From the NCBI GenBank assembly GCA_028821475.1, contig JAPPGB010000025.1, positions 1 through 64,000 on the forward strand: a stretch of DNA of 64,000 nucleotides. The letters are read 5' to 3'. Below, piece by piece: positions 2,673 to 39,919 of the stretch (position 1 is the first letter of the stretch; the number at the start of each line of letters is the position of its first letter). Source of the stretch: Spirochaetaceae bacterium. Lineage in GTDB: Bacteria > Spirochaetota > Spirochaetia > SZUA-6 > Bin103. The notes under the pieces are model-generated. The model was not told where the DNA came from. It ran no database searches and worked only from the letters and a program-made list of their open reading frames with translations. Position numbers and translations under genes: made by a program.

Positions 2673-4442
2673 ATGGCCCACGCCGGCGCAGGCTCGCATT
2701 CGGGAATTCGCTACCAGCCGGACGAGCGGCCTCCGCCGCTGCTTGCCGTCGGGGTCGGAGTACAACTCGCCATACTCAATATCGCGGCGATCATGCTGAT
2801 CCCGGCGGTGGTGATGCGGGCCGGCGGCGCGAGCGAAGCCTACGCTTCATGGGCGGTGTTCGCCACCGTCGCGGTTTCCGGCCTTACCACGGCGCTGCAG
2901 GCGTTTCGCCTCGGGAGGTTCGGCGGCGGACACGTGTTGCTCATGGGCGCCTCCGCGGCGTTCATCTCGGTCAGCATCACGGCCGTGGCCGAGGGCGGGC
3001 CGGCGCTGCTGGCCACGCTGGTGGTCATCACCGCCGTGGTCCCGCTGCTGCTCTCCTGGCGGCTCGCGCAGGTGCAGCGCATCGTGACTCCGGCGGTCGC
3101 GGGCACCGTGATCATGCTGATCCCGATCACCGTACTGCCGGCGGTCGGCGACTTGCTGGCCAGCGTACCGGCCGGCAGCCCGGCCGCCGCCGCCCCGCTC
3201 AGTGCACTGGCCACGGGCGCCGTGATCACCGCCCTGACATTGAAGGCCCCGGGCGCATGGCGGCTGTGGGCGCCGGTCATCGGGGTGGGCGCCGGTGCGC
3301 TCGTCGGCGGCGGGTTCGGTCTGTACGACTCCGGCCGCGTCGCCGCGGCGGCGTGGGTCGATTTCCCACGGGGCCGGTGGCCCGGCTTCGATCTCTCCTT
3401 CGGCGCCTCGTTCTGGGCCCTGCTGCCGGCGTTCCTGCTGGTGGCGGTGATCGCCGCCGTACGCACCATGAGCAGCGCCGTCGCCGTGCAGCGCGTGTCG
3501 TGGCGCCGCTCGCGTGCAATCGACTACCGCGCCGTACAGGGCGCGGTCACCCTCGACGGCGTGGGCAACCTGCTGTCGGGACTCGCCGGCACGCTGCCCA
3601 ACACCACCTACTCGGTCAGCGCGCCGCTGATCTCGCTCACCGGAGTGGCGGCCCGCGGCGTCGGTATCGCCACCGGCGCGGTGTTCCTTGTCCTGGTGTT
3701 TCTGCCGAAGACGCTGGCGGTTATCCTGGCGGTGCCCGATCCGGTCTTTGCCGCCTACCTGCTGGTGCTGCTCGGGCTGCTGTTCCTGGTCGGCATCAAC
3801 ATCGTCGTGCAGGACGGCCTCGATGCCCGCAAGGGAATGATCGTGGGACTCGCGCTGCTGATCGGCGTCAGCGCGCACTACGGCATGATTTTCCCCGACC
3901 TGCTCGCCGAGTTCGCCGGTGGCCTGTTGGGCAACGGCATGAACGCCGGCGGGTACTCGGCGATCGTGATGACGCTGTTCGTGGCGCTCACCGAGTCGCG
4001 CCGCAGCCGCTTCCGGGCGGCGCGCTTCGATCGCTCGGTACTGCCCGACGTGGCAGCCTTCATTCGCGCGTTTGCCGCGCGCAACGGTTGGGACGAGGCG
4101 ACGGTGCAGCGGCTCGACGCCGCCGGCGAAGAAGCACTGCTGGCGCTGCTCGGCGATGGTGCAGGTCGCCGGCAAGGGCGCGGCCGGCACCTGCACCTGG
4201 CCGCGTACCGGGAGGAAGGCGGGGCGGTGCTCGAATTCGCGGTCGGTCCCGGCGGGCACAACCTGCAGGACCGGATCGCGCTGGTCGGCGAGCAGACCGA
4301 TGAGGCTGCGCCGGAGCGGGAAGTTACCCTGCGCCTGCTGCGCCATCTCGCCTCTTCGGTGCACCACCGGCAGTATCACGACACCGACGTCGTGACCGTT
4401 CGGGTGCAGGTGCCGGCGCCCGCCCGCGGCGCACGGACGTAG
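2673..4442 (+). CDS. NCS2-family xanthine/uracil permease with C-terminal HATPase-like domain
   Basis: The N-terminal two thirds (about residues 20-430) is a hydrophobic NCS2 (UraA/XanP-type) nucleobase:cation symporter, entered by the family-like segment GIRYQPDERPP and containing about a dozen membrane spans. The remaining roughly 150 residues are soluble. They resemble an RsbW-like HATPase_c fold: helix with GEEALLAL, a strand-rich middle, then a GLxLI-like LRLLRHLASS and a closing VVTVRV. The ATP-binding Asn box and glycine loops are not evident, so ATP binding is doubtful. The ATG at 2673 has no clear Shine-Dalgarno, but the N-terminus aligns with the family. The xanthine dehydrogenase and purine-catabolic genes nearby make a purine base the likely substrate (inference). 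Confidence 0.82.
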   Translation: MAHAGAGSHSGIRYQPDERPPPLLAVGVGVQLAILNIAAIMLIPAVVMRAGGASEAYASWAVFATVAVSGLTTALQAFRLGRFGGGHVLLMGASAAFISVSITAVAEGGPALLATLVVITAVVPLLLSWRLAQVQRIVTPAVAGTVIMLIPITVLPAVGDLLASVPAGSPAAAAPLSALATGAVITALTLKAPGAWRLWAPVIGVGAGALVGGGFGLYDSGRVAAAAWVDFPRGRWPGFDLSFGASFWALLPAFLLVAVIAAVRTMSSAVAVQRVSWRRSRAIDYRAVQGAVTLDGVGNLLSGLAGTLPNTTYSVSAPLISLTGVAARGVGIATGAVFLVLVFLPKTLAVILAVPDPVFAAYLLVLLGLLFLVGINIVVQDGLDARKGMIVGLALLIGVSAHYGMIFPDLLAEFAGGLLGNGMNAGGYSAIVMTLFVALTESRRSRFRAARFDRSVLPDVAAFIRAFAARNGWDEATVQRLDAAGEEALLALLGDGAGRRQGRGRHLHLAAYREEGGAVLEFAVGPGGHNLQDRIALVGEQTDEAAPEREVTLRLLRHLASSVHHRQYHDTDVVTVRVQVPAPARGART

Positions 4443-4492
4443 CGCCCCGAAACCGTCGCCGTGCGGCGCCGCTTCCGGCCGAGCCGGCTTGC
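4442..4492 (+). repeat. Dispersed intergenic repeat, copy A
   Basis: This roughly 50-base GC-rich unit begins GCGCCCCGAAACCG and contains GCGGCGCCGCTTCCGGCC. It lies directly after the permease stop and recurs with a few changes at 25961-26010, between ade and guaD. It can form a GC-rich hairpin. It looks like a REP-type intergenic element; only two copies are visible here. Confidence 0.5.
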
Positions 4493-4518
4493 TATGGTCT
4501 TCGTTCCGCCGCGGAGCG

Positions 4519-5445
4519 CTACGGCAGACCGTTCGATGCCAGGAAGTCCCGGATCAACGCCGCGCACTCGGCCGGTCTCTCCAGCGGAAACAGGTGTGTG
4601 GTCTCCGGCAGGAAGTCGTAGTCCACGTCCGCCATGTCGGCGAGGTCGAGCGTCGGCAGGTAGGCATAGGGCAGGGTGGGGTCGGACCCGATCACCTTGG
4701 TCGGGCACGCGAGCTGGCCGAGGTCCACGAGTACGCAGTAGATGCGGGTGTATTGCATGATCTGTGCCTCGTATTCGCGCGGGCAGCGCAGTTCGTAGTC
4801 CTGCCCGTTGGACGATCGGCGCAGCGTCGTGCGTGCCATCAGTTCGCGAACCCCCGGAACGACCCGTGCGAAGGCGGGAAAGAAGCTCAGCAGTTCGACG
4901 AAGGCGTCGCGGGACTGGAACCGGTACCCGCGCCGTCGGATCGCTTCCGCGGCGCGGGTGGCGGCCACCTCGAACTCCACTTGGCTGGTCCCCGGCTTGC
5001 AGAGCGTCGGATCCAACAGCACCTGGGCGGACAGCGGACGGCGGTCGTCGATCGCCCGGATCTGCGTCGTCGCCGACGACAGAAGCGCTATGAGAGCGGA
5101 GACGGAGTGATAGACGCCGACCTTGGGCTTGTCGCCGAAGTGCTGGTCGATCGCCTCCAGAATGTGCTCGTGGTCGTGGATCAGGGTCGGAATGTTGTGC
5201 CGGGCACGCGGGCCCACGGTGTTCCAGCCGTGGTTCCTGATGTCATACAGGATCAGGTCGAACTCGTCGGCCAGCAGTGACCAGAACGGGTAGTAGAGGT
5301 CGATCGCCAGGCCGTTGCCGTGGCCGAGCACGAGCCGCGAACCGTTCGGGTTGCCATGCCTGCGCAGCGCGATGACCGTGTCCTGGTCGAGGCGCACTTC
5401 GCGCACGGCGAGCGGATCGGGTATCTCCCACGCGGGTTCCATCAT
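4519..5445 (-). CDS. Alpha/beta hydrolase
   Basis: A 308-residue alpha/beta-hydrolase-fold protein. It has the HGNG oxyanion-type motif (VLGHGNGLAID), the DIRNHG strand and loop, a nucleophile elbow GVYHSVSA (Ser in a non-classical G-x-x-H-S-x-S setting) and a C-terminal His in ETTHLFPLE. These fit a serine esterase or lipase-like enzyme; the substrate is unknown. The frame extends upstream to a TTG at 5622, but similarity to hydrolases starts at the ATG pair 5445/5442 (MMEPAWEIP), so 5445 is preferred; no strong ribosome-binding site is seen. The gene is divergent from the PhyH gene across about 260 bases. Confidence 0.8.
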   Translation of the reverse strand: MMEPAWEIPDPLAVREVRLDQDTVIALRRHGNPNGSRLVLGHGNGLAIDLYYPFWSLLADEFDLILYDIRNHGWNTVGPRARHNIPTLIHDHEHILEAIDQHFGDKPKVGVYHSVSALIALLSSATTQIRAIDDRRPLSAQVLLDPTLCKPGTSQVEFEVAATRAAEAIRRRGYRFQSRDAFVELLSFFPAFARVVPGVRELMARTTLRRSSNGQDYELRCPREYEAQIMQYTRIYCVLVDLGQLACPTKVIGSDPTLPYAYLPTLDLADMADVDYDFLPETTHLFPLERPAECAALIRDFLASNGLP

Positions 5446-5709
5446 TCTGGGCAGTTCCAGCGCCCCGGAATCGCCGCTTTCGGCCCAACCGGCGGTCGAT
5501 TCAGCGACGGTGGCACGGGCGAAGAAGCTCTGGATTCCGGAAAGGTATCGGCGCGCCGACGTGTGGTCAACTTCCCGAACTGCCCATCGGCTCCCGCCGG
5601 CAAGCAGGCGAGCGGCAAGCAAGATGGTGACGCAACGTCCCGGAACAACCTAACATGCGCGGACAAGTCGAACGCCGGCTGCCGGGCAGCGGCGCATGGG
5701 GAGGCATCG

Positions 5710-6816
5710 ATGAGCGACGCGTATCTGGTCGAGGGTGAGCGACGGGCCGCTGAGCTCGGCAACCGCGGGCCGCTTCGATTCGACCGCGCCGGCAACCTGG
5801 AGCCGGACATACTCGAAGCCTACGGCCGCACCGGCTTCTACGTGTTCGAGGGACTGCTGCGCAACACGGAACTGGGCGAATTGCAGGCCGACTTCGAGCG
5901 CGTGCTGGAGCAGGCGCCGCTGTCGGGAGCGGCAGTGGTCGATTCGCGTGGACGGCCGGCGCTCGGCGTCGACCTCAAGCTGCCGCAATTCCACTTCGCC
6001 AAGCCGCTCAGCGATCCCATCGGCGGCACCACGCTCCTCGACGGACGCCACCCGGTGAAGATGGCCGAACCCGCCGCGCCGGACGACGCGCCGGGCAGGG
6101 TCTTGTACTACGTCGGCAACGGTGCGCTGCAGCTCATGGATGCCTATCTGCGGCTGTACGGCAACCCGGAGCTGCTGCACGTGGCCGAGCAGATCGCCGG
6201 ACCCGATTTCGTTCCGTGGTATGAGGCGGTCTTCGTGAAGCATGCCGGACTCGGCCCATCGACGGCATGGCATCAGGACGGCACCACCCATTGGGACAAT
6301 CCGGCGCTCGGCGCGGGCGCGCACGGGTTCAACGTGATGACCCAGCTCTATCCGACCACCCCCGCGAATGCGCTCTGGGTGGTTCCCGGCACCCACCTGG
6401 CCAAGGTCGACATCGTGGCGCGCGTTGCCGCCAACGGCGGTTCCGATCGTCTGCCCGGTGCGGTACCGATGCTGTGCAACCCGGGCGACGTGGCGATCAA
6501 CGACCGCCAGGTCCTGCATGGGGCATTCGCGAACGCATCCGACCGGCGGCGGGTGACGCTGGTATTCGGGTTCTACCCGCGCGCTTCCGTGCTCGGCGTG
6601 AAGCGGGGCAATCCGCCCCGGCTCTATGACGCTGCACGCATCCATGAGCGTTCGCGCATCGTCGCGTTGGCCATCGATGCCCGCCGGCAGCACTTCCCCG
6701 ACGAGGCCCCCTACATGTACCAGCCGCTGGCCGGCGAGTTGGACGCCAACCGCTGGAACGAGGACACGCGCGAGTCGATCCTGAAGAACTACGACCTCAA
6801 CACCATGTTCCTGTGA
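5710..6816 (+). CDS. Phytanoyl-CoA dioxygenase (PhyH) family protein
   Basis: A 368-residue Fe(II)/2-oxoglutarate-dependent oxygenase of the PhyH family. The iron ligands are visible as HxD in TAWHQDGT (His188, Asp190) and the distal His in VLHGAF (His270), followed by the Arg-containing RRRVTLVFGF strand expected to hold 2-oxoglutarate. The start is set by a GGGGAGG ribosome-binding site (5698-5704) five bases before the ATG; the open frame further upstream overlaps the divergent hydrolase gene and is not family-like. PhyH paralogues act on many lipids and secondary metabolites, so the substrate is open. The gene stands alone between the hydrolase and the aquaporin. Confidence 0.88.
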   Translation: MSDAYLVEGERRAAELGNRGPLRFDRAGNLEPDILEAYGRTGFYVFEGLLRNTELGELQADFERVLEQAPLSGAAVVDSRGRPALGVDLKLPQFHFAKPLSDPIGGTTLLDGRHPVKMAEPAAPDDAPGRVLYYVGNGALQLMDAYLRLYGNPELLHVAEQIAGPDFVPWYEAVFVKHAGLGPSTAWHQDGTTHWDNPALGAGAHGFNVMTQLYPTTPANALWVVPGTHLAKVDIVARVAANGGSDRLPGAVPMLCNPGDVAINDRQVLHGAFANASDRRRVTLVFGFYPRASVLGVKRGNPPRLYDAARIHERSRIVALAIDARRQHFPDEAPYMYQPLAGELDANRWNEDTRESILKNYDLNTMFL

Positions 6817-6854
6817 CCGGCCGCCGCCGTACCAGCCGCGGCCCGCGGGGCTGC

Positions 6855-7544
6855 TCAGTCGCGGTAGAGCAATCGGTAGAGGAGCAAGCCAAGAATCGCG
6901 CCCGCAAACGGACCGACGATGAATATCCACACGCCGGCCAGCGCCGCGCCACCCTGGACCAGTGCCGGGCCGAGGCTGCGCGCCGGGTTGAGGGAGGCAT
7001 CGCCGAGTTGCGCGCCCACCAGGTGAGCCACGAACAGGAAGCCGCCGATGGCGATGCCGGCCACCCCGGGGGCGGCGTCGTCGCGAGTTGCGCCCAGAAT
7101 CACTACCAGGAACAGAGCCGTCATCACCAATTCGAGCATCAGCAGCGAGAAGGCGCCCATCTGCCGGGGATTGCCGTTGGCCCCCAGGCCGTTGTTGCCC
7201 AACTCGTACCCGGGGATGCCGCTGACGATGACCAGCAACACCAGGCTGGCGACGAGCGCCCCCACTACCTGCACGACGATGTAGACCGCTGCCTTGCCGC
7301 CCTCGATCTTGCCGGCGATCAACATGGCGATGGTCACCGCGGGGTTGATGTGGCACCCGGATACCGGGCCGATCACCCAGACCAGCACCATGAGCGTGAA
7401 TCCGAAGGCGAACGAGATTCCGAGCCAGCCGGTGTCTCCGTAGCCGGGCAGGAACCCTTGCAGGGTGGCGACGCCGGTTCCGATGAACACCAGCGCGAAG
7501 GTACCCACCAACTCTCCAAGATAACTGCGTACGTTCGCTGGCAT
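6855..7544 (-). CDS. MIP-family aquaporin
   Basis: A 229-residue six-span major intrinsic protein. Both half-helix motifs are present: HINPAV (NPA 67-69) and SLNPARS (NPA 186-188). A Ser rather than Asp after the second NPAR points to a water channel (AqpZ-like) rather than a GlpF-type glycerol facilitator. The start is set by an AGGAGGAGGT ribosome-binding site six bases before the ATG at 7544. It lies downstream of the sulfatase on the same strand, separated by about 200 bases of locally AT-rich DNA (about 7610-7690) that probably carries its own promoter. Confidence 0.92.
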   Translation of the reverse strand: MPANVRSYLGELVGTFALVFIGTGVATLQGFLPGYGDTGWLGISFAFGFTLMVLVWVIGPVSGCHINPAVTIAMLIAGKIEGGKAAVYIVVQVVGALVASLVLLVIVSGIPGYELGNNGLGANGNPRQMGAFSLLMLELVMTALFLVVILGATRDDAAPGVAGIAIGGFLFVAHLVGAQLGDASLNPARSLGPALVQGGAALAGVWIFIVGPFAGAILGLLLYRLLYRD

Positions 7545-7747
7545 CTCTCTACCTCCTCCTGCGAGCGGCAATCGGTTGCCGGCCCTCAACGCTACTCCCG
7601 GCAACCAGCAAAGATAAAACTATGGTATCTGTTTCCATGTAAATGGGGTTTTTCAGATGAGTATCAGTAGACTTGCGTATTGTACCACTGATGCTGCTTT
7701 ATGCGTAGCGGCTGCCGAGGGCGTCGGTGGCGGCTCCGCGAGTGGCG

Positions 7748-9247
7748 TCAGCGCCGGTCGGTGACGCGTGGCACCACGTCGCAAGTCTCCTGGTACCAGC
7801 GCAGCATGCGCAGCCGCAGCGCCGCCAGCACGGCGCCGTAGCCCGGGTCGTCGATCACGTTGCGCTGTTCGCCGGGGTCGCGCACCAGGTCGTACAGCTC
7901 GTCGCTCTCGTACAAGCGCTGTACGTATTTGTGGGTCGCCGTACGGCACATGGCCGCCTTGCTGTGGTACGGCTCGTCGAGCTGGACCTGGAGCCCGATG
8001 CGCGGCGCATACAGACCGAGCGGGCCGCCGGCGCTCGTGCTCTCAAGCTCGGAGGCCTGCACCTCGCCGAGGCGCCGGCCACCTTCGCAGAACACCGCGT
8101 CGCGCCCGGCCGCCCCTGCAGCTCCGCTCAGCAAGGGCAGCAGGCTGTGGCCGAAGTGGTCGTAGCCGGGATCGATGCCGGTCAGGTCGTACACCGTCGC
8201 CGAGAAATCCACCAGTTCCACCAGGGCGTCGCAGACACGCGCCGTCACCGGCACTCCGGCCGGCGGCTTGACCACCAACGGCACCCGGGTCAGGCAATCC
8301 TCGAACGTGTTCTGTGTCTTCTCGACCAGCCCGTAGTCGCCGGTAAAGTCGCCGTGGTCCGAGAACAGGAAGATCGCCGCGTCGTCGTAGCGCCCGCGCT
8401 CCCGCAGGGCGTCGCACAACAGGCCGAACTGGTGATCGACGCGCGCGCACATGCCGTAGTACGTGGCGCGCAGCTCGGTCCAGCGCTTCTCGCTCCAGCC
8501 CTGCAGACGCTGGCCGCGGCGGATGCCCCCCAGCAGCGACGGCTTGCCGGTCTCGTCCGCGGGCGCCGGAATGCGCGGCGGCAGCGCGGCGCGGTCGGTG
8601 ACGCCGTACCACGGCTCCTCCACGCAGTAGGGCGGATGGGGGAAGGAGAGCGGCAGGTAGATGCACAGCGGCTGGTCGCCGCGGTAGTTGCGCAGGAAGT
8701 CGATGGCGCCGAGCACGTGTGCCCAGTCGCGGTCGCAGTAGAACGGATCGCCGCCGCGCTCCAGCCGGCCCTTGAAGAAGCTGTAGAAGTTGTCGCCCTC
8801 CGGGTCGCCGCGCCAGCCCAGGTCGCCGGCGTGGGTGCCTTCGCGCGGCGCGCATCCCCAGCGCCGGTAGTCCTCGTCCGTCGGCTCGAACTTGACGTCG
8901 CAGTAGGGCGACAGGTCGGCACCGCCGGGCACCAGGTCGTTCTTGCCGCCCCACCAGACGAAGTAGCCGTGCTCCTTGAGGATGCGCAGCAGGTTGGGTT
9001 CGTTCCACTCCGGGTGCAGCATGTGGTGCATGGTGCGGTGCCCGCGCACGTGCGGGTACCAGCCGGTCATGAAGCTGCAGCGGCTCGGCGTGCACACCGG
9101 GTTCTGGCAGAACGCGCGCGAGAAAGACACCCCGTCCTCGGCCACCATCCGGTCGATCGCCGGCGTCACCGCCGCACCGTTGCCCACGTGTCCGAGCACG
9201 TCCCCCCGCCACTGGTCGGGATTGAAGATGATAATGTCGGGTCGCAT
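7748..9247 (-). CDS. Sulfatase (arylsulfatase/alkaline phosphatase superfamily)
   Basis: A 499-residue type I sulfatase with the formylglycine signature CTPSR (Cys52) and the N-terminal metal-site segment NPDQWRGD. It needs conversion of Cys52 to formylglycine by a maturase that is not in the window. SDHGD and KPP motifs further in are typical of the family. No signal peptide is evident at the chosen ATG, so it may be cytoplasmic, as in many choline- or carbohydrate-sulfatase-like enzymes. The frame is open upstream to 9382, but family similarity begins at 9247 (MRPDIIIF). The natural substrate cannot be told from sequence. Confidence 0.9.
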   Translation of the reverse strand: MRPDIIIFNPDQWRGDVLGHVGNGAAVTPAIDRMVAEDGVSFSRAFCQNPVCTPSRCSFMTGWYPHVRGHRTMHHMLHPEWNEPNLLRILKEHGYFVWWGGKNDLVPGGADLSPYCDVKFEPTDEDYRRWGCAPREGTHAGDLGWRGDPEGDNFYSFFKGRLERGGDPFYCDRDWAHVLGAIDFLRNYRGDQPLCIYLPLSFPHPPYCVEEPWYGVTDRAALPPRIPAPADETGKPSLLGGIRRGQRLQGWSEKRWTELRATYYGMCARVDHQFGLLCDALRERGRYDDAAIFLFSDHGDFTGDYGLVEKTQNTFEDCLTRVPLVVKPPAGVPVTARVCDALVELVDFSATVYDLTGIDPGYDHFGHSLLPLLSGAAGAAGRDAVFCEGGRRLGEVQASELESTSAGGPLGLYAPRIGLQVQLDEPYHSKAAMCRTATHKYVQRLYESDELYDLVRDPGEQRNVIDDPGYGAVLAALRLRMLRWYQETCDVVPRVTDRR

Positions 9248-9631: not shown

Positions 9632-10354
9632 TCAGTGGATGCTTACAAGCGCATCAACCAGATTTCGGTAGTGATAGCATTGGTTTTCCAGACGAGCGAA
9701 TCCGCCTGAGTGATTCATACAATAGCGACGTCTTCGGTCAGGACTCTTGTCAATTTGAGTGAATTCTTCGATCTGGCGGTTCTCAAACCGATGCAGAGCA
9801 GTCATGAATTCCCGACAGAGCGCAATTCCGGTAAGGGTTTCGGGATCAATAGAGTGTTGTCGGAATGCAGCGATACACCATGTTTCTGTTGACTCTACGG
9901 ACGGCGCGGGAATGTGTCGCCTCAAGTCGGTGATTGTAAGCTTCGCGAATTCACCTACTATCCCAATGATTTCAGTAATTTCCTTGCCGCGTTCGACTGG
10001 GTCTGGAGGATTTTCCACCGTATAGTCGCAGTGTTCTTTCGTCCAGCTCTGGAATCCCGAATCCGACAGTATATCGGTGTCCAACTGAAAGACCATAACA
10101 TCACATCGTTTAGCGGACAGATCGTCGTCAAACAGACCTCCATGGAAATAGGCCCTCGTCCTTGACCGAGGTGGGTTCTTCTCCAGCCAAAGAAGCACTG
10201 CACCCCACCCACCGTCATGTGGTCTCGTATTGTCCGTACCGGGTTGAATCGGAATAAAATCCAGTGTGATCCCGCGGTGGGTCAGTGACGCACGCAAAAA
10301 CCAACAAATCGCGTGAGCGTCCGTCGGACCTTCACAGACCACGCCTATACGCAC
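9632..10354 (-). CDS. TOPRIM-like nuclease-type protein (DUF4276-like), partner of the upstream AAA ATPase
   Basis: A 240-residue protein starting MRIGVVCEGPTDAH. The CEGPTD segment matches the conserved Glu of TOPRIM domains, and VFQLDTD (roughly residue 90) supplies a DxD-type metal motif, as in OLD-like nucleases and DUF4276 proteins. Family assignment is from motifs only. The start lies three bases downstream of the AAA ATPase stop, so the two are co-translated. AAA ATPase + TOPRIM pairs of this layout are known in phage defence (OLD, Gabija, PARIS, RloAB-like), and a defence role is inferred. The patch is visibly AT-richer than its neighbours, consistent with horizontal acquisition. Confidence 0.65.
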   Translation of the reverse strand: MRIGVVCEGPTDAHAICWFLRASLTHRGITLDFIPIQPGTDNTRPHDGGWGAVLLWLEKNPPRSRTRAYFHGGLFDDDLSAKRCDVMVFQLDTDILSDSGFQSWTKEHCDYTVENPPDPVERGKEITEIIGIVGEFAKLTITDLRRHIPAPSVESTETWCIAAFRQHSIDPETLTGIALCREFMTALHRFENRQIEEFTQIDKSPDRRRRYCMNHSGGFARLENQCYHYRNLVDALVSIH

Positions 10355-10357
10355 GGA

Positions 10358-11650
10358 TTATACGCTCTGCCCCAGAGCACCTCGGATCTCCCCGTCCAAC
10401 CACAGTTGGGAAAGATTGCGTCCGTTCTTGGCTTCTTCCCAGTCGTCTCTCGACATTTCCGGACTTGGCCGAAGCCGGTTCACGACGGTATGACCCATGT
10501 CATCTCTCTCGACAACAAAGACCCGCTGGTCATCGTCGAACAAGTCAAACGCGTCCAGCGACGTGGGATTGTGGCTGGTAAGGAATACTTGCCTGGGTCC
10601 GCACGGTAGGTCGTGAGAAAAAGCCCTTCGAGTAGTCTCGATCACGGTCTCAAGCAACGCTCTGGTCATTCGTGGATTCAAAGCACTGTGGACATTGTCC
10701 AAAGCGAATATCTTAGGAGACTCATCGTGCGAGAGTAGCACGGCGATAAAGAGAAGGAAGAGTGTTCCCTCACTACTGTCATACACGGATAGTGTGCGCC
10801 GCTTGGAATGCATGAACCTGTCGAGGAAGTAAACGGTGTCTTCGCCCGGATCCAGCAGTGCTCTTGATACCAAGTGTGTATCGATTCTACCTACACGAAC
10901 TCCCGATGCCCAGCGTGGCAGGTATGCCAAATCAAGTGCTTTCCGCTTAAGCCGCCACGACGAGCCTTGTTGAGGCCCAGATCTTGGATCTGATTCGGAC
11001 TCCTGCAGTTGCTTTATCTGTCTAATTAATCCACGAACAGCCTGAGGCAAACCCTCACCATGCAGACCGACGGGCTTAATGTCGACGGTCCCTGTCTGCA
11101 TGCCGCGAAGAAAATCGGTCTGCGGTGAGTATATCGCGAACTCCGAGAGTACATGAAATGCTTGCCTCACAGGAGCGGGAAACTTGTGACCCGTACGCAC
11201 TTGATCCCACATGCTTCGATCGACGTAGAGGTCCCCGTAGATACTCTCCCCTAGTACTTGGACGCCGTTCCTACCCTGACCAAACATCTTACGACCCTCG
11301 TACATACAACTCTCGGTAAAAAAAGCTAGCAGCGGATCGTCGTCCTTGCCTGTGAGGTTAATCTTGTAGGTGACGATGCTCTCGATCTCGGCGGTGAGTT
11401 GGAGTGTCTTCGGAAGTTCGTAGTACTTGAACGCCGACTTCATCAAAGCTGGGGGCGTGATGCGTACACCCTTTCTCACCAGATCGCTGTCTCCCAGACC
11501 GCGATAAGCTGAGGCGGACAAGACGCCTATCGCTTCGAGGATGTTCGACTTGCCGGCACCGTTACCCCCAATGAACAGGTTAACACGGCCAAACTCGAGG
11601 GCGGCGGAGCGGATTGACTTAAACCGATCTACTATAAGTTTCGTAACCAT
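10358..11650 (-). CDS. AAA family ATPase (RecF/OLD-like)
   Basis: A 430-residue SMC/RecF-type ATPase. Walker A is GGNGAGKS (28-35), an ABC-signature-like SSEGT lies before Walker B, and the switch histidine is in LTSHNP. Walker B reads FALDN (about 315-319), with Asn where the catalytic Glu is usual, so hydrolysis may be slow or the protein may be a nucleotide-gated sensor. The frame is open upstream to 11701, but the ATG at 11650 (MVTKLIVDRF) fits the usual start of the family. It is the first gene of a pair with the TOPRIM-like gene three bases downstream. Codon use is clearly less GC-biased than in flanking genes. Confidence 0.8.
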   Translation of the reverse strand: MVTKLIVDRFKSIRSAALEFGRVNLFIGGNGAGKSNILEAIGVLSASAYRGLGDSDLVRKGVRITPPALMKSAFKYYELPKTLQLTAEIESIVTYKINLTGKDDDPLLAFFTESCMYEGRKMFGQGRNGVQVLGESIYGDLYVDRSMWDQVRTGHKFPAPVRQAFHVLSEFAIYSPQTDFLRGMQTGTVDIKPVGLHGEGLPQAVRGLIRQIKQLQESESDPRSGPQQGSSWRLKRKALDLAYLPRWASGVRVGRIDTHLVSRALLDPGEDTVYFLDRFMHSKRRTLSVYDSSEGTLFLLFIAVLLSHDESPKIFALDNVHSALNPRMTRALLETVIETTRRAFSHDLPCGPRQVFLTSHNPTSLDAFDLFDDDQRVFVVERDDMGHTVVNRLRPSPEMSRDDWEEAKNGRNLSQLWLDGEIRGALGQSV

Positions 11651-12019
11651 CGCTACGCCATACGCTTCGCTAAGTCGCCATCCTGAAAGGGGACCACGCA
11701 CAATCTACAGCCTACAGCGCATCCAGGGATGACGATAGCGACTCTGGAGAGCGCCGAATCGACACATGGGTGGCACGGTCACCACCCGACAGCGATGTAA
11801 GAGTACCACAATCGAACCGCTCTATGCCAGAAGTGTGCGCCGAAGCGCGGATGCACGGATGAAAACGCGTAGAACGAAGGACGGTGGCCTCTGAGGTCGC
11901 TATTCAGATTAGGTCCAGTGGGTGGGTACTGGCCGAAGGCTTGTGTCAGGCGCTGCTTCGGGCGCGCACTCGTGCGTGGTAGTGTCGCGGATGGGGGGAT
12001 CGGATATCATGGGTGAGAG
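11651..12019. other. Divergent intergenic region between AAA ATPase and xdhC
   Basis: These 369 bases separate the divergent AAA ATPase and xanthine dehydrogenase operons and probably hold both promoters. No reading frame with recognisable similarity and no clear structured RNA is seen. The half near the ATPase gene is AT-richer than the half near xdhC. Confidence 0.5.
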
Positions 12020-33205: not shown

Positions 33206-34276
33206 TTACTCGGGCAGCTTGTCGTCGACGCCCTGCACGTACCAGTTCATGCCGAGCAGCGTGCCGTCGTCGAGCACCTCGCCCTCGCCGATCACCATGT
33301 CGCCGTCCTGGTTGTAGATCGGGCCCTTGAACGGGTGCAGTTCGCCGGAGGCGATCGCCGCTTCCGTCTCGCGCGCGAGCGCGGCCACTTCCTCGGGCAT
33401 GTTCAAGTACTCGGACATGCGCACCATGCCGGGCGCGATGCCGTCCCAGGTGTCGGTGGACTCCCAGGTACCGTCCAGCACCGCGCGGGTGCGTTCAACG
33501 TAGTAGGGCGCCCACTCGTCGATAATGGCGGTGAGCTGCGCGTTGGGGGCGAAGTGGTGCATGTCGGAGGCCTGGCCGAAGCCGACCACGCCCTGCTCCT
33601 CGGCGATCTGCAGCGGTGCGGTGGAGTCGGTGTGCTGGGTGATGATGTCGGCGCCCTGGCCGATCAGCACCTTGGCGGCGTCCGCCTCCTTGCCGGGATC
33701 GAACCAGGTGTTGACCCAGATCACCTTGATCTTGAAGTCGGGGTTGATGGTCTGCGCACCGAGCAGGAACGAGTTGATGCCGCGCACCACCTCGGGAATC
33801 GGGAACGACGCGATGTAGCCGGCGACGCCGCTCTCCGACATCTGCGCGGCGATCTGGCCGATGATGTAGCGGCCCTCGTAGAAGCGGGCCGAGTAGATCG
33901 ACACGTTGTCGGCGCGCTTGTAGCCGGTGGCGTGTTCGAACTTCACGTCCGGAAAGCGCTCGGCCACCTTGACGGTCGGGTCCATGAAGCCGAACGAGGT
34001 GGTGAAGATCAGGCCGGCGCCCTGGCGCGCGAGGCGGGTGATGGCGCGCTCGGCGTCGGGTCCCTCGGCGACGTTCTCGACGTACACCGTCTCCACGTGG
34101 TCGCCGAACTCCTCCTCCACGGCCAGCAGTCCCTGGTGGTGCTGGTAGGTCCAGCCGTGGTCGCCGATCGGGCCGACGTAGATGAAGCCGACTTTCAGTT
34201 CTTCGTCGCCGAAGGCGAAGGTCGAGACCGACAGCAGCAGCGCAAGGCTGACGATGAGTGCGAATACCTTTCTCAT
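33206..34276 (-). CDS. BMP family ABC transporter substrate-binding protein (PnrA/TmpC-like)
   Basis: A 356-residue basic-membrane-protein-family binding protein, known in related systems to bind purine nucleosides. It has a signal peptide (about 1-22), then LKVGFIYVGPIGDHGWTYQH, FTTSFGFMDPTVK, GYIASFPIPEVVRGIN and NTWFDPGKEADAA. An AAGGAG site eight bases before the ATG at 34276 sets the start. It is the last gene of a minus-strand importer operon with two permeases and a double ATPase; the 190-base gap upstream may give it separate high expression. Confidence 0.92.
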   Translation of the reverse strand: MRKVFALIVSLALLLSVSTFAFGDEELKVGFIYVGPIGDHGWTYQHHQGLLAVEEEFGDHVETVYVENVAEGPDAERAITRLARQGAGLIFTTSFGFMDPTVKVAERFPDVKFEHATGYKRADNVSIYSARFYEGRYIIGQIAAQMSESGVAGYIASFPIPEVVRGINSFLLGAQTINPDFKIKVIWVNTWFDPGKEADAAKVLIGQGADIITQHTDSTAPLQIAEEQGVVGFGQASDMHHFAPNAQLTAIIDEWAPYYVERTRAVLDGTWESTDTWDGIAPGMVRMSEYLNMPEEVAALARETEAAIASGELHPFKGPIYNQDGDMVIGEGEVLDDGTLLGMNWYVQGVDDKLPE

Positions 34277-34466
34277 GAGGTCACTCCTTTGGTGTGATGA
34301 TAGATGGTCGTGGCCGAACTCTCGGCGCCTGCGGGCCGGCGAGCGGACCAGGACGAATGACACCACGAGTATCCCGCTTGGTCAAGCCGCGCCGCACGGC
34401 GATGCTATTGGTGACAGAATGTCCAGAATCGAAGGGCGGCCGGTGGCGGCACGGGCCGCCAAGACG

Positions 34467-35396
34467 CTAACGGTCCGGCACGAACGGCAGCCCGAGGCAG
34501 GCCGGGGTATTCTTCCGGGTGAGCAGGCGGTTGCCGGAGATCAGTACCAGCGCGGCAATCGTGGCCAGGTAGGGCAGCGAGGAGAGCAGTTGCGGCGGGA
34601 TGCCGATGCCTACCCCCTGCGCATACAGGCCCATGATCCACACCGTGCCGAACAGGTAGGCGCCGATCGCGACGCGGCGCGGCGCCCAGGTGGAGAATAC
34701 CACCAGGGCCAGGGCGATCCAGCCGCGACCGGCGGTCATGTTCTCGATCCACTGCGGCGTGTACACCAGGGACAGGTAGCCGCCGGCCAGCCCGGCGCAG
34801 GCGCCGCCGAACGCGATGCAAGCATAGCGCACCGCGATCACGCGGTAACCGAGCGCGTGCGCGGAGTGGTGGTTGCCGCCGGTGGCGCGGATCACCAGCC
34901 CTACGCGCGTGCGCGCCAGCGTCCAGGCCACCAGCACCGTGATCGCCACCGAGGCGTACACCAGCGGATCCTGGCCGAACACGACCGGACCGATGAGTGG
35001 GATGTCGGACAACCCGGGGAGGTGCAGGCGCTGCATCTTCGCGGAGTCGGGCAGGGGCAGGCCGGTGAAGTTCTCGCCGATCATGCCGGACAGGCCCAAC
35101 CCGAACAGCGTCAACGCCAACCCGGTGGCGACCTGGTTGGTGACCAGCGTCTGGGTGAAGTACGCGAACAGCAACGCAACCGCCATCCCCATCACGATCG
35201 CCGCCGCCACGCCGGCCACGGCCGAGCCGAACGTGTAGGCGGCGCCGAAGCCGCTCACAGCGCCGATGATCATCATCCCCTCGACGCCGAGGTTCAGCAC
35301 CCCCGAACGCTCCGTCACCAGTTCCCCGATGGCCGCCAGCAGCAGCGGCGTCGCTGCCGTGATGATGGTCAGCAGCACCGCCTCCAGTGCGCTCAT
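34467..35396 (-). CDS. Nucleoside-type ABC transporter permease (YufQ/NupQ-like)
   Basis: A 309-residue permease of the BPD_transp_2 family with ERSGVLNLGVEGMMIIGAV, the family signature near the N-terminus, and ATGGNHHSAHALGY before the last spans. It partners the YufP-like permease at 37186-38244. Unusually, an AAA ATPase/TOPRIM pair lies between the two permease genes. Its ATG overlaps the stop of the TOPRIM gene (ATGA), and the AGGA ribosome-binding site lies inside that gene's last codons. Confidence 0.9.
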   Translation of the reverse strand: MSALEAVLLTIITAATPLLLAAIGELVTERSGVLNLGVEGMMIIGAVSGFGAAYTFGSAVAGVAAAIVMGMAVALLFAYFTQTLVTNQVATGLALTLFGLGLSGMIGENFTGLPLPDSAKMQRLHLPGLSDIPLIGPVVFGQDPLVYASVAITVLVAWTLARTRVGLVIRATGGNHHSAHALGYRVIAVRYACIAFGGACAGLAGGYLSLVYTPQWIENMTAGRGWIALALVVFSTWAPRRVAIGAYLFGTVWIMGLYAQGVGIGIPPQLLSSLPYLATIAALVLISGNRLLTRKNTPACLGLPFVPDR

Positions 35397-36073
35397 CGTC
35401 GTTTTCCTGGACCGCGGGAGTCTTCCTCTGGCTCGATTCTCGCGGGTTCTGGTGCGCTGGGTGCGCCCTGCAGATTCGTCAGAAACCTGCGTATTTCGGC
35501 AAAGGCGTCATGCTCCGCATCCCAGTTCCCCCGCTCTGCTGCGACTCCAACCGACCCATGCGGCTTGGACTTCGAGGCCAAGTAAGCTTGTATCCGTGCC
35601 TTGTCTCGACGCGTAACCCGAATGTCGCCCAGATCCAGACACCCCAGGAACTCGTTAGCACACCGAGCTTCAGACGTGTCCTCAATGCTTCGCCAGAGTA
35701 GCGATTCCAGATTCCCCTGATCCGTGCCGTTGGGCAGCACGAACACCGAGACGAATGGGTTCCCTGGCGTCGAGTTTTCCCTAAGAGACCGATATGAGAG
35801 CCCAACACTACGCAATGTATTCTGGACACTCTCAAGTGCCGATTTAGCGGAAGTTTCGGCGTCTCGAATGATCCCGAGATTCCTGACCCTACGGAATCCG
35901 TCAGTCCTTGCGAAAGTCTCAAGATATGGTCGCAGATTCTCATTGTTGCCGAAATCATGGATCTCGACATCGGATACACCCCACGACTCACAGAACACAC
36001 GAAAGACCCTTTTGGGGTTGATCCCTTCGACAAGCAGTTGAGTTGATGACTTCAGTTCTCTTGGAGACGCCAT
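35393..36073 (-). CDS. DUF3226 (TOPRIM-like) protein, partner of AAA ATPase
   Basis: A 226-residue protein matching DUF3226: LLVEGINPKRVF (TOPRIM Glu16), GIIRDAE (Asp71, Glu73 metal motif) and a C-terminal VLPNGTDQGNLESLLW. DUF3226/TOPRIM proteins are predicted nucleases that pair with OLD/RecF-like ATPases. It starts four bases after the ATPase stop and overlaps the downstream transporter permease by ATGA. Base composition is AT-richer than the surrounding importer genes, pointing to insertion of a two-gene cassette. Confidence 0.75.
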   Translation of the reverse strand: MASPRELKSSTQLLVEGINPKRVFRVFCESWGVSDVEIHDFGNNENLRPYLETFARTDGFRRVRNLGIIRDAETSAKSALESVQNTLRSVGLSYRSLRENSTPGNPFVSVFVLPNGTDQGNLESLLWRSIEDTSEARCANEFLGCLDLGDIRVTRRDKARIQAYLASKSKPHGSVGVAAERGNWDAEHDAFAEIRRFLTNLQGAPSAPEPARIEPEEDSRGPGKRR

Positions 36074-36077
36074 CGCG

Positions 36078-37121
36078 TCAGCGAACCTCCAGACTGTGGC
36101 GTACGGCAGTGTCTATGTGCTCGCGATGGTAGCTGAAGCAACGGTGACCTTCCTCCGACGCTTCCAACCGGTGTAACATGAGATCATCGCTGTGCAAAGA
36201 CTGCGCTGCTTGAACGCACTCGTAGCTATGCGTCGTGGCAAATACCTGTACGTCCAACTCCCGAACGACATCCAGAATGAAACGCCATATGTCGGCAGCA
36301 ATTGAGTGATGGATCCCATTTTCTATTTCGTCCACGAGCAATACTCCGCCTCGCGCAAGCACCATGCACATCGCTAACCGGGAGACACGTACCATCCCTT
36401 CTCCGACCGTCGGTAGAGGAACCAGCTCGGACAATCCCATATCAGCCCAGATCATGGGAGATCCTGTTTGTGAAATGACTTCGAGACTGGTAAGAGAGGG
36501 ATCAACAATGCGCAACGCGTCCACTACTCGATGTGCTTGTTTTTGCTTTTTCAATGCGTCAAGACACTCGGCGTCCGAGCGCAAATCCCCAAGCCCTGAG
36601 GGAACAATCCAGGCGGGGAAAAGGACGGGGCGATGTCGGCGCTCCATGTGGATTTCCTTGTCCGTGACCTGAATTCGTCGTTGCCAATCTTCATCATCGC
36701 TACGGATCGTGGCCAGCAGCTTCGGATCCTGTAGCTCCTCCCCCAGTAACACCTCGTTGGAGGCAGTGAGTGATGTTTTCACGATCTCGTCACGCTCCAT
36801 TTCGACCGTCATGCTAAGGGATCCACCTGACTCGTGCTTGGCGCTGATCTCTATTGGGGTCCTGAAATCGAACGACTTAAACATCTGCCTCCAGTAGATC
36901 GACGGAATTGCTGCCGGTGGCAAACGTTCCGATTTCATCCCACGGATGATGGCGGTGTGCATCGTGATTTCCGGGTGTCCTGCAGACAACAGCAAGAGAG
37001 CTTCGAGCAGGGTCGTCTTGCCGGAGTTGTTGCGGCCGCTGATGAGATTGATGCGGCTCAACTCATCAATTCCAAGTTTATGGAAGGCGCGGTAGTTCGA
37101 GATTCTTAGGCTCTTCAGCAT
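36078..37121 (-). CDS. AAA family ATPase (RecF/OLD-like), second copy-type in window
   Basis: A 347-residue ATPase starting MLKSLRISNYRAF. Walker A is GRNNSGKT (29-36), Walker B LLVDEIENG (Asp264-Glu265) and the switch His is in ATTHSYECV. Walker B is intact, unlike in the ATPase at 10358. An AAGGAG site upstream sets the ATG at 37121. It is not a close relative of the first ATPase. The ATPase and the DUF3226 gene form a cassette between two permease genes of one importer, on the same strand. Confidence 0.82.
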   Translation of the reverse strand: MLKSLRISNYRAFHKLGIDELSRINLISGRNNSGKTTLLEALLLLSAGHPEITMHTAIIRGMKSERLPPAAIPSIYWRQMFKSFDFRTPIEISAKHESGGSLSMTVEMERDEIVKTSLTASNEVLLGEELQDPKLLATIRSDDEDWQRRIQVTDKEIHMERRHRPVLFPAWIVPSGLGDLRSDAECLDALKKQKQAHRVVDALRIVDPSLTSLEVISQTGSPMIWADMGLSELVPLPTVGEGMVRVSRLAMCMVLARGGVLLVDEIENGIHHSIAADIWRFILDVVRELDVQVFATTHSYECVQAAQSLHSDDLMLHRLEASEEGHRCFSYHREHIDTAVRHSLEVR

Positions 37122-37152
37122 TGATCCGATCTCCTTGAACGCGTGGCCAGGT

Positions 37153-37166
37153 CGAGGGTACCCTCG
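37153..37166. repeat. 14-base perfect palindrome at the cassette's upstream edge
   Basis: CGAGGGTACCCTCG lies in the 64-base gap between the YufP-like permease stop and the AAA ATPase start, next to tandem GGTAC repeats. It could be an operator for the cassette or mark the insertion junction. Confidence 0.45.
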
Positions 37167-37185
37167 CCGGCGGTACGGTACGGTA

Positions 37186-38244
37186 TCATTTCTGTACCAC
37201 ACGCACCCGGTAGCGGATCAGGGTGTCGCTGGCGAGGATGAAGAACAGCAGGGTGCCCTGGAACACCTGCGCGGTCTTGTCGGACAGGCCGAGTTCGATC
37301 TGCGCACCTTCGCCGCCCAGGTAGCTGATCGCCAGGATGATGCCGGCGAACAGGACGCCGACCGGGTTGAGCCGGCCGAGGAAGGCCACGATGATGGCGG
37401 TGAAGCCGTAGCCGGGCGAGATCACCGGCTGCAGCTGCCCGACCGGGCCGGCGATCTCGCCGATGCCCGCCAGCCCGGCCAGGCCGCCGGACAACACCAG
37501 GCAGAACCACACGGTGCGCGGGCGCGAGAAGCCGCCGAAGCCGCTGGCGCGCGGCGCGGCGCCGCTCACCTCGATCTCGAACCCCTTGAGGGTGCGCGCC
37601 ATGAACAGGAACAGCACCAGCACCGCCAGCACCGCGAACGCGCCGCCCAGGTGCACCCGGCTGTAGCCGAGCGTCGGCAGGAGCTGGAGCCCCTCCAGCG
37701 CCACCGACTCCGGGAAGTTGTAGCCCTCCGGATCGCGCCACGGCCCGCGCACAAGCCAGTCGAGCAGGAGCTGCGCCACGTACACGAGCATCAGGCTGGT
37801 AAGGATCTCGTTGGCGCCGAAGCGGTTGCGCAGCAGCGCCGGAATCGCCGCCCAGGCGATGCCGCCGGCCATGCCGAGCAGCATCATCAGCGGCAGCGCC
37901 AGCGGCGACTGCCACTGGTTGGCCAGGATCGGGATGGCGGCGCCGGCGACGGCGCCGAGCGTGAGCTGGCCCTCGGCGCCGATGTTCCAGACGTTGGCGC
38001 GGAAGCACACCGCCAGCCCGACGCCGATCAGCACCAGCGGCGTGGCCTTGACCACCAGCTCCTCGATCGACCACAGGCTGGCCACCGGCTCGATGAAGTA
38101 GACGTACAGCCCGCGCCACGGATCGACGCCGCGCGCCGCGAACAGTATGGCGCCCACGATCACCATGAGCAGGATCGCCAGTAGGGGGGAAACCACGGTC
38201 ATCACCCGGCTCGGCTGCGGGCGCTGCTCGAACAGCAGCTTCAC
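37186..38244 (-). CDS. Nucleoside-type ABC transporter permease (YufP/NupP-like)
   Basis: A 352-residue permease of the BPD_transp_2 family with FRANVWNIGAEGQLTLGA, the family signature, and FGANEILTSLMLVYVA. The start is a GTG at 38244 that overlaps the stop of a 42-codon mini-frame (GTGA), the product of a local tandem duplication. It belongs to the BMP-type importer together with the permease at 34467-35396. Confidence 0.9.
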   Translation of the reverse strand: MKLLFEQRPQPSRVMTVVSPLLAILLMVIVGAILFAARGVDPWRGLYVYFIEPVASLWSIEELVVKATPLVLIGVGLAVCFRANVWNIGAEGQLTLGAVAGAAIPILANQWQSPLALPLMMLLGMAGGIAWAAIPALLRNRFGANEILTSLMLVYVAQLLLDWLVRGPWRDPEGYNFPESVALEGLQLLPTLGYSRVHLGGAFAVLAVLVLFLFMARTLKGFEIEVSGAAPRASGFGGFSRPRTVWFCLVLSGGLAGLAGIGEIAGPVGQLQPVISPGYGFTAIIVAFLGRLNPVGVLFAGIILAISYLGGEGAQIELGLSDKTAQVFQGTLLFFILASDTLIRYRVRVVQK

Positions 38245-38365
38245 GCCGGGACCCCCGGGACCCCCGGGTCCGCCGGGACCTCCCGGTTGCCTGTGCTTTC
38301 GTGGGCGCCTGCCATCAAGAGGCCGATCCGGCGGCTCGGCGGAGGGCGTTGCGTGAACAACAGCT

Positions 38366-38369
<4 letters not shown>
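38241..38369 (-). repeat. Tandem duplication of the ATPase/permease junction, forming a 42-codon linking frame
   Basis: The 125-base unit spanning the ATPase end and permease start is present twice with changes, including a run of GGGACCCCC-like nonamers at 38248-38285. The intervening copy encodes a frame that starts at a GTG overlapping the ATPase stop (GTGA, 38369-38366), reads KLLF, then RIGLLMAGAHESTG (a copy of the ATPase C-terminus) and a Pro/Gly/Val tail. It stops at a TGA overlapping the permease GTG (38244-38241). Ribosome re-initiation could thus pass from ATPase to permease through it. Whether a stable peptide is made is unknown. Confidence 0.75.

Positions 38370-39919
<1,550 letters not shown>

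Follow-up and report, generated by a model that had tools for sequence, protein, structure and literature searches.

A two-gene cassette, encoding an ABC ATPase of the OLD/PtuA/Rad50 type and a Toprim-like protein of the DUF3226 family, separates the two permease genes of an importer operon in a spirochaete genome. We consider it likely that the cassette is a horizontally acquired split-OLD pair of the PDC-M38 type that was inserted at the permease-permease junction, took over the translational overlap of the host genes, rides on the importer transcript and has a role in defense. Throughout, the window denotes the entire stretch of 64,000 nucleotides that was analyzed; the features discussed are collected in Table 1.

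Table 1. Features of the window that are discussed in the text
Feature	Coordinates	Strand	Remarks
Other AAA ATPase + small gene pair	9632-11701	-	PDC-M31A/B, a different candidate defense family; also AT-rich
BMP-family (PnrA-like) substrate-binding protein	33206..34366	-	PF02608, 7e-55
Downstream permease (BPD_transp_2)	34467..35396	-	Pfam; dN/dS 0.07 vs G001
ATGA overlap	35393..35396	-	DUF3226 stop + downstream permease start (ATG at 35396)
DUF3226 Toprim-like gene	35393..36073	-	226 aa; PDC-M38B; predicted nuclease effector
DUF3226 C-terminal tail	35396..35470	-	25 codons, residues 202-226; family-atypical; carries AGGA motif
OLD/PtuA/Rad50-type ABC ATPase gene	36078..37121	-	347 aa; ATG at 37121, stop at 36078; PDC-M38A/AbiLi-like; predicted sensor-scaffold
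Spacer, upstream permease stop to ATPase start	37122..37185	-	64 nt; AAGGAG site
Upstream permease (BPD_transp_2)	37186..38244	-	Pfam
Importer ATPase, two ABC_tran domains	38366..39919	-	Pfam

The layout of the locus is compact. The ATPase gene begins 64 nt after the end of the upstream permease gene (37186) and has an AAGGAG motif 9 nt upstream of its ATG; the DUF3226 gene starts at 36073, 4 nt past the end of the ATPase gene, and its stop codon overlaps the start codon of the downstream permease gene as ATGA, with an AGGA motif 8 nt ahead of the permease ATG, inside the last DUF3226 codons. The cassette boundaries, the gap and the overlap were given correctly in the preliminary description of this DNA, as was the location of the permease ribosome-binding site within the final codons of the putative nuclease gene. 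The cassette was also rightly described there as AT-richer than its flanks: its GC content is 0.54-0.55, compared with 0.66-0.72 in the four importer genes, and the difference widens at third codon positions (GC3 of 0.62 in the ATPase gene and 0.56 in the DUF3226 gene vs 0.92-0.96). Most of the 80 related loci show the same bias relative to their flanks, and because low GC is common in the PDC-M38-type family, composition alone is no proof of recent arrival. The substrate of the importer can be suggested from the BMP (PnrA-like) family of its binding protein. Between the window and a genome of the same genus (G001), the importer genes show dN/dS values of 0.07-0.20, which span the whole divergence of the two genomes and not just the time after the insertion.

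The evidence for insertion comes from the comparison of the junction in one genome of the window's species (G000) with ten other genomes from several families of the order: G001, a genome of the same family (G003), and eight further genomes of the same order. The importer operon of G001 is 87-93% identical to that of the window at the DNA level and has no cassette; its two permease genes overlap by ATGA (...GGAGGTGGCGCGATGACGGGG). The cassette is likewise absent from G003, where the overlap is GTGA. In the eight order-level genomes, the permease genes are directly adjacent and the junction is unbroken: the spacing is 2-3 nt in five of these and, in the other three, for which the script found no start codon, the frames run on and leave no room for a gene. 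Thus, the search for an empty site that the preliminary description had called for favors insertion and, with ten empty junctions against one filled, the simple reading is that it occurred in the G000 lineage. The window's assembly consists of 183 contigs, and the junctions are those of the assembled sequence. That the cassette was instead part of the ancestral operon and disappeared from the relatives appears extremely improbable: although a single genome represents the species and a deletion could leave a clean junction too, all ten other genomes lack the cassette, its GC3 is foreign to the operon, and a search across the order recovered no close homologue of the pair. The outgroups already disfavor such a history, and sequence comparison supports a lineage-specific insertion at the permease-permease junction.

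Alignment of the window with G001 allows the junction to be rebuilt. Downstream, the break coincides with the permease ATG. Upstream, identity stops near RYR[V/I]RV, after which the permease of the window ends with VQK and a stop codon and that of G001 runs on through QRDAAGASEVAR; the C-terminus RYRVRVVQK is accordingly shorter than its counterpart RYRIRVQRDAAGASEVAR in G001. At the upstream permease gene, the insertion would have replaced roughly 10 terminal codons. The DUF3226 protein, for its part, is unusually long at this end, with 29 residues after F197, the last strongly conserved phenylalanine, compared with a median of 5 and no more than 14 in 67 relatives. These extra codons bear both the AGGA motif and the stop codon of the ATGA overlap; their GC content is 0.65 and their GC3 0.48. 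A displaced permease tail was considered as their source and ruled out by this GC3, given the 0.92-0.96 of the host genes; because the value is unlike host coding sequence, the tail was probably carried in with the cassette as DNA that had formerly lain downstream of it. Through the tail, the frame of the nuclease gene now reaches the permease start, so that, judging from the aligned genomes, the ATGA overlap that once joined the two permease genes has come to join nuclease and permease.

The spacer contains a perfect 14-nt palindrome, CGAGGGTACCCTCG (37153-37166), along with TACCG direct repeats. A transposon-like insertion was rejected: neither terminal inverted repeats nor a target-site duplication was recognized at the cassette ends, and the spacer and its palindrome each occur once in the window's assembly. 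A scan limited to sigma-70-type sites found no such promoter in 34300-38400, so that the cassette is likely to be co-transcribed with the importer. As for the earlier proposal that permease expression is translationally coupled to the nuclease gene, the sequence-level part of it stands, in the form of the ATGA overlap and the AGGA motif, and the coupling itself is a prediction from these.

Both cassette proteins show the features expected of an OLD-like system. The ATPase matches Pfam AAA_21 (2e-23; also AAA_15) and, among the PADLOC models, AbiLi (6e-58), PDC-M38A (4e-57) and AriA. It has Walker A (GRNNSGKTT) and Walker B (DEIENGIH) motifs and a T297/H298 motif; the positions that are invariant in 47 ATPase sequences (G29, G34, K35, E40, D264-H271, T297 and H298) are all intact. 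The top PDB matches of its AF2 model (pLDDT 88.8) are the heads of Rad50, PtuA, GajA and SMC, which identifies it as an OLD/Rad50-type ABC ATPase. The DUF3226 protein matches PF11536 (2e-25); its only matches to defense models are a modest one to PDC-M38B (1e-11) and a weak one to RT_UG9. E16, D71 and G120, invariant in 42 DUF3226 sequences, are present; of 68 sequences, 56 have D and 11 have E at position 73. The first Foldseek matches of its AF2 model (pLDDT 91.3) are OLD Toprim domains (E 5e-4). The structure of the OLD Toprim domain 6nk8 aligns with Z 10.2 (161 residues, 4.3 A), a score to be read against the Z of 9-10 that unrelated Rossmann-like folds reach. Taken with the alignment, the predicted structure indicates a Toprim-like fold with a conserved acidic motif.

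By analogy with known systems, the two-gene module is probably anti-phage. As in PARIS and OLD systems, the ATPase may sense infection and meanwhile restrain the DUF3226 protein; the Toprim nuclease, once released or activated, would then cut nucleic acid and halt phage growth, as its fold, active-site residues and partnership suggest. The literature that was searched contained no match for DUF3226 and no reported function for the cassette family. A housekeeping or DNA-repair role for the pair is the main alternative. It would fit the Rad50/SMC-like head of the ATPase, the stable position of the pair in some Chloroflexota and cyanobacteria, and a DUF3226 signal in Methanocaldococcus jannaschii among the controls, and OLD-family ATPases with a cell-cycle role have been reported in an archaeon (PMC12796447). 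However, the pair is patchily distributed, being found in 35 of the 393 genomes from the phylum, has low GC, and includes broken copies; furthermore, independent exchange of both genes at a fixed site (see below) is unusual for housekeeping genes. We therefore regard such a role as unlikely and the defense role as the preferred reading.

The partnership of the two genes is robust: across phyla, DUF3226 adjoins the ATPase in 80 of the 81 loci compared (the window plus 80 relatives), mostly with the genes overlapping or a few nucleotides apart. The neighbors, conversely, vary. The co-directional ones named by Pfam include Thy1, HisG, a sugar-isomerase-like protein, PPK2, GatB, a fumarase-type lyase, a peptidase with a BPD_transp_1 permease, and the restriction-type HsdR, DUF1156 and HerA. 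Restriction-type neighbors (DUF1156 proteins, a HerA-like ATPase, HsdR and a NOV_C protein) were seen at four loci (L118, 91-6290; L114, 2579-9641; L061, 6703-9675; L076, 6853-9969).

The preliminary description had suggested that nucleoside uptake and nuclease immunity could be functionally linked. As a conserved association, such a link found no support: when the four importer proteins were compared by tblastn with the 80 related loci and with shorter loci from the phylum and from viruses, no importer neighbors recurred, and the only hits were a partial BMP-like match on the reverse strand and a distant ABC match. The tight coupling to the downstream permease, in one genome, would be expected if the cassette altered or sensed nucleotide salvage, but with other cassettes adjoining Thy1, HisG, GatB, fumarase, PPK2 or restriction-type genes, a tie to nucleoside uptake is very unlikely.

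The idea that the family generally favors operon interiors was also rejected. Among the 62 loci in which our own gene caller found both cassette genes (the window being among the loci omitted), co-directional neighbors on both sides were found in 31, compared with an expectation of about 48%, given that 69% of other neighboring pairs are on the same strand. Co-directional neighbors closer than 100 nt on both sides are uncommon (6/62), and the tight embedding of the cassette in the window is a local event. As regards vehicles, ATPase relatives were detected in 13 IMG/VR loci, although tblastn of the DUF3226 protein against phages and plasmids gave no match, and a phage or plasmid vehicle was rejected.

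In 18 Chloroflexota loci from many separate assemblies (L073, L078, L081, L083, L086, L089, L090, L093, L094, L098, L101, L103, L105, L112, L115, L117, L120 and L121; at about 3850-8300 in most), the pair sits at a single site, flanked by a gene for what its sequence suggests is TsaD and by the gene for a membrane-like protein of about 456 aa that has no Pfam match. Pairwise identities of the two flanks agree (Mantel r 0.47, p 0.0005), whereas neither the ATPase nor DUF3226 agrees with the flanks (r 0.00-0.13), and between the ATPase and DUF3226 there is no clear concordance (r 0.165, p 0.05). By AU tests, the ATPase tree is incompatible with the main DUF3226 group (p 2e-5) and the DUF3226 tree with the main ATPase group (p 8e-6); these p-values are optimistic because the groups were picked after the identities had been seen, which does not apply to the Mantel tests. 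Independent exchange of the ATPase and DUF3226 at a fixed site fits diversification of the immune type. A second apparently fixed site was noticed in several cyanobacteria (L113, L119, L124, L125, L126 and L134), where a gene for a 213-aa protein (of the histidine phosphatase family in L113) is found downstream of the pair and, in most cases, an open reading frame of about 825 aa upstream.

Further copies occur in this and in related genomes. Elsewhere in the window's genome (L012, G000:C72), two fragmentary ATPase/DUF3226 copies, at about 3400-4020 (+) and 10500-11480 (-), appear to have decayed by internal deletions. G001 carries a divergent pair in a place other than the empty site (L157, G001:C58, 1405-3681, -), in which the ATPase frame spans 551 aa, and G014 has another pair. 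The preliminary description was mistaken in counting the cassette as the second of its kind in the window: in the other pair, both genes match PDC-M31, and the small one, without any Pfam match, is not DUF3226.

From these observations, we tentatively venture a broader proposal, to which we give rather less than even odds: PDC-M38-type cassettes might be sensor-effector pairs that are minimal and movable yet have no mobile-element vehicle themselves, entering host operons with translational coupling kept and exchanging ATPase and DUF3226 independently at fixed sites, so that immunity would evolve by the shuffling of parts. The present case documents, with empty sites, the capture of a defense-type cassette in a conserved housekeeping operon, and the passing of reading-frame coupling from a host gene to a cassette gene. 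Because ATPase and nuclease are exchanged independently in Chloroflexota, the compatibility of sensor and effector can be tested directly.

Among known systems, the closest is PDC-M38, a two-gene phage defense candidate of PADLOC-DB: both models, A and B, are matched by adjacent genes in the A-B order. The cassette of the window differs in its place within a transport operon, in the atypical C-terminal tail of the B protein and in the modest B match. The nearest solved structure to the DUF3226 protein is PH0156 (PDB 2p62; Z 13.5 over 187 residues, 3.2 A; profile E 2.5e-6), the entry title of which is that of a hypothetical archaeal protein. AbiLi is the best model of the ATPase, as would be the case in AbiL, but the DUF3226 partner has no AbiLii match. 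In OLD family nucleases and Gabija GajA, the ABC ATPase is fused to Toprim (PMC10568477); the cassette has the same two folds, according to the predicted structures, but in separate genes, and the pair is adjoined by importer genes, not by a UvrD-like GajB helicase. PARIS combines the ABC ATPase AriA with AriB, a Toprim/DUF4435 protein (PMC9122126, PMC12409363), and AriA keeps AriB until a phage trigger frees it (PMC12409363); the sequestering ATPase of PARIS is a hexamer. The cassette resembles PARIS in its separate genes for an ABC ATPase sensor and a Toprim-type nuclease and in the match of the ATPase to AriA models, and differs in its DUF3226 effector, for which the models gave no match to AriB or DUF4435; the DUF3226 profile matches AriB weakly (8ux9_A, E 0.66). 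The architecture is thus split-OLD and PARIS-like, neither PARIS nor AbiL by partner, and the cassette is a member of the known candidate family PDC-M38 in a new place.
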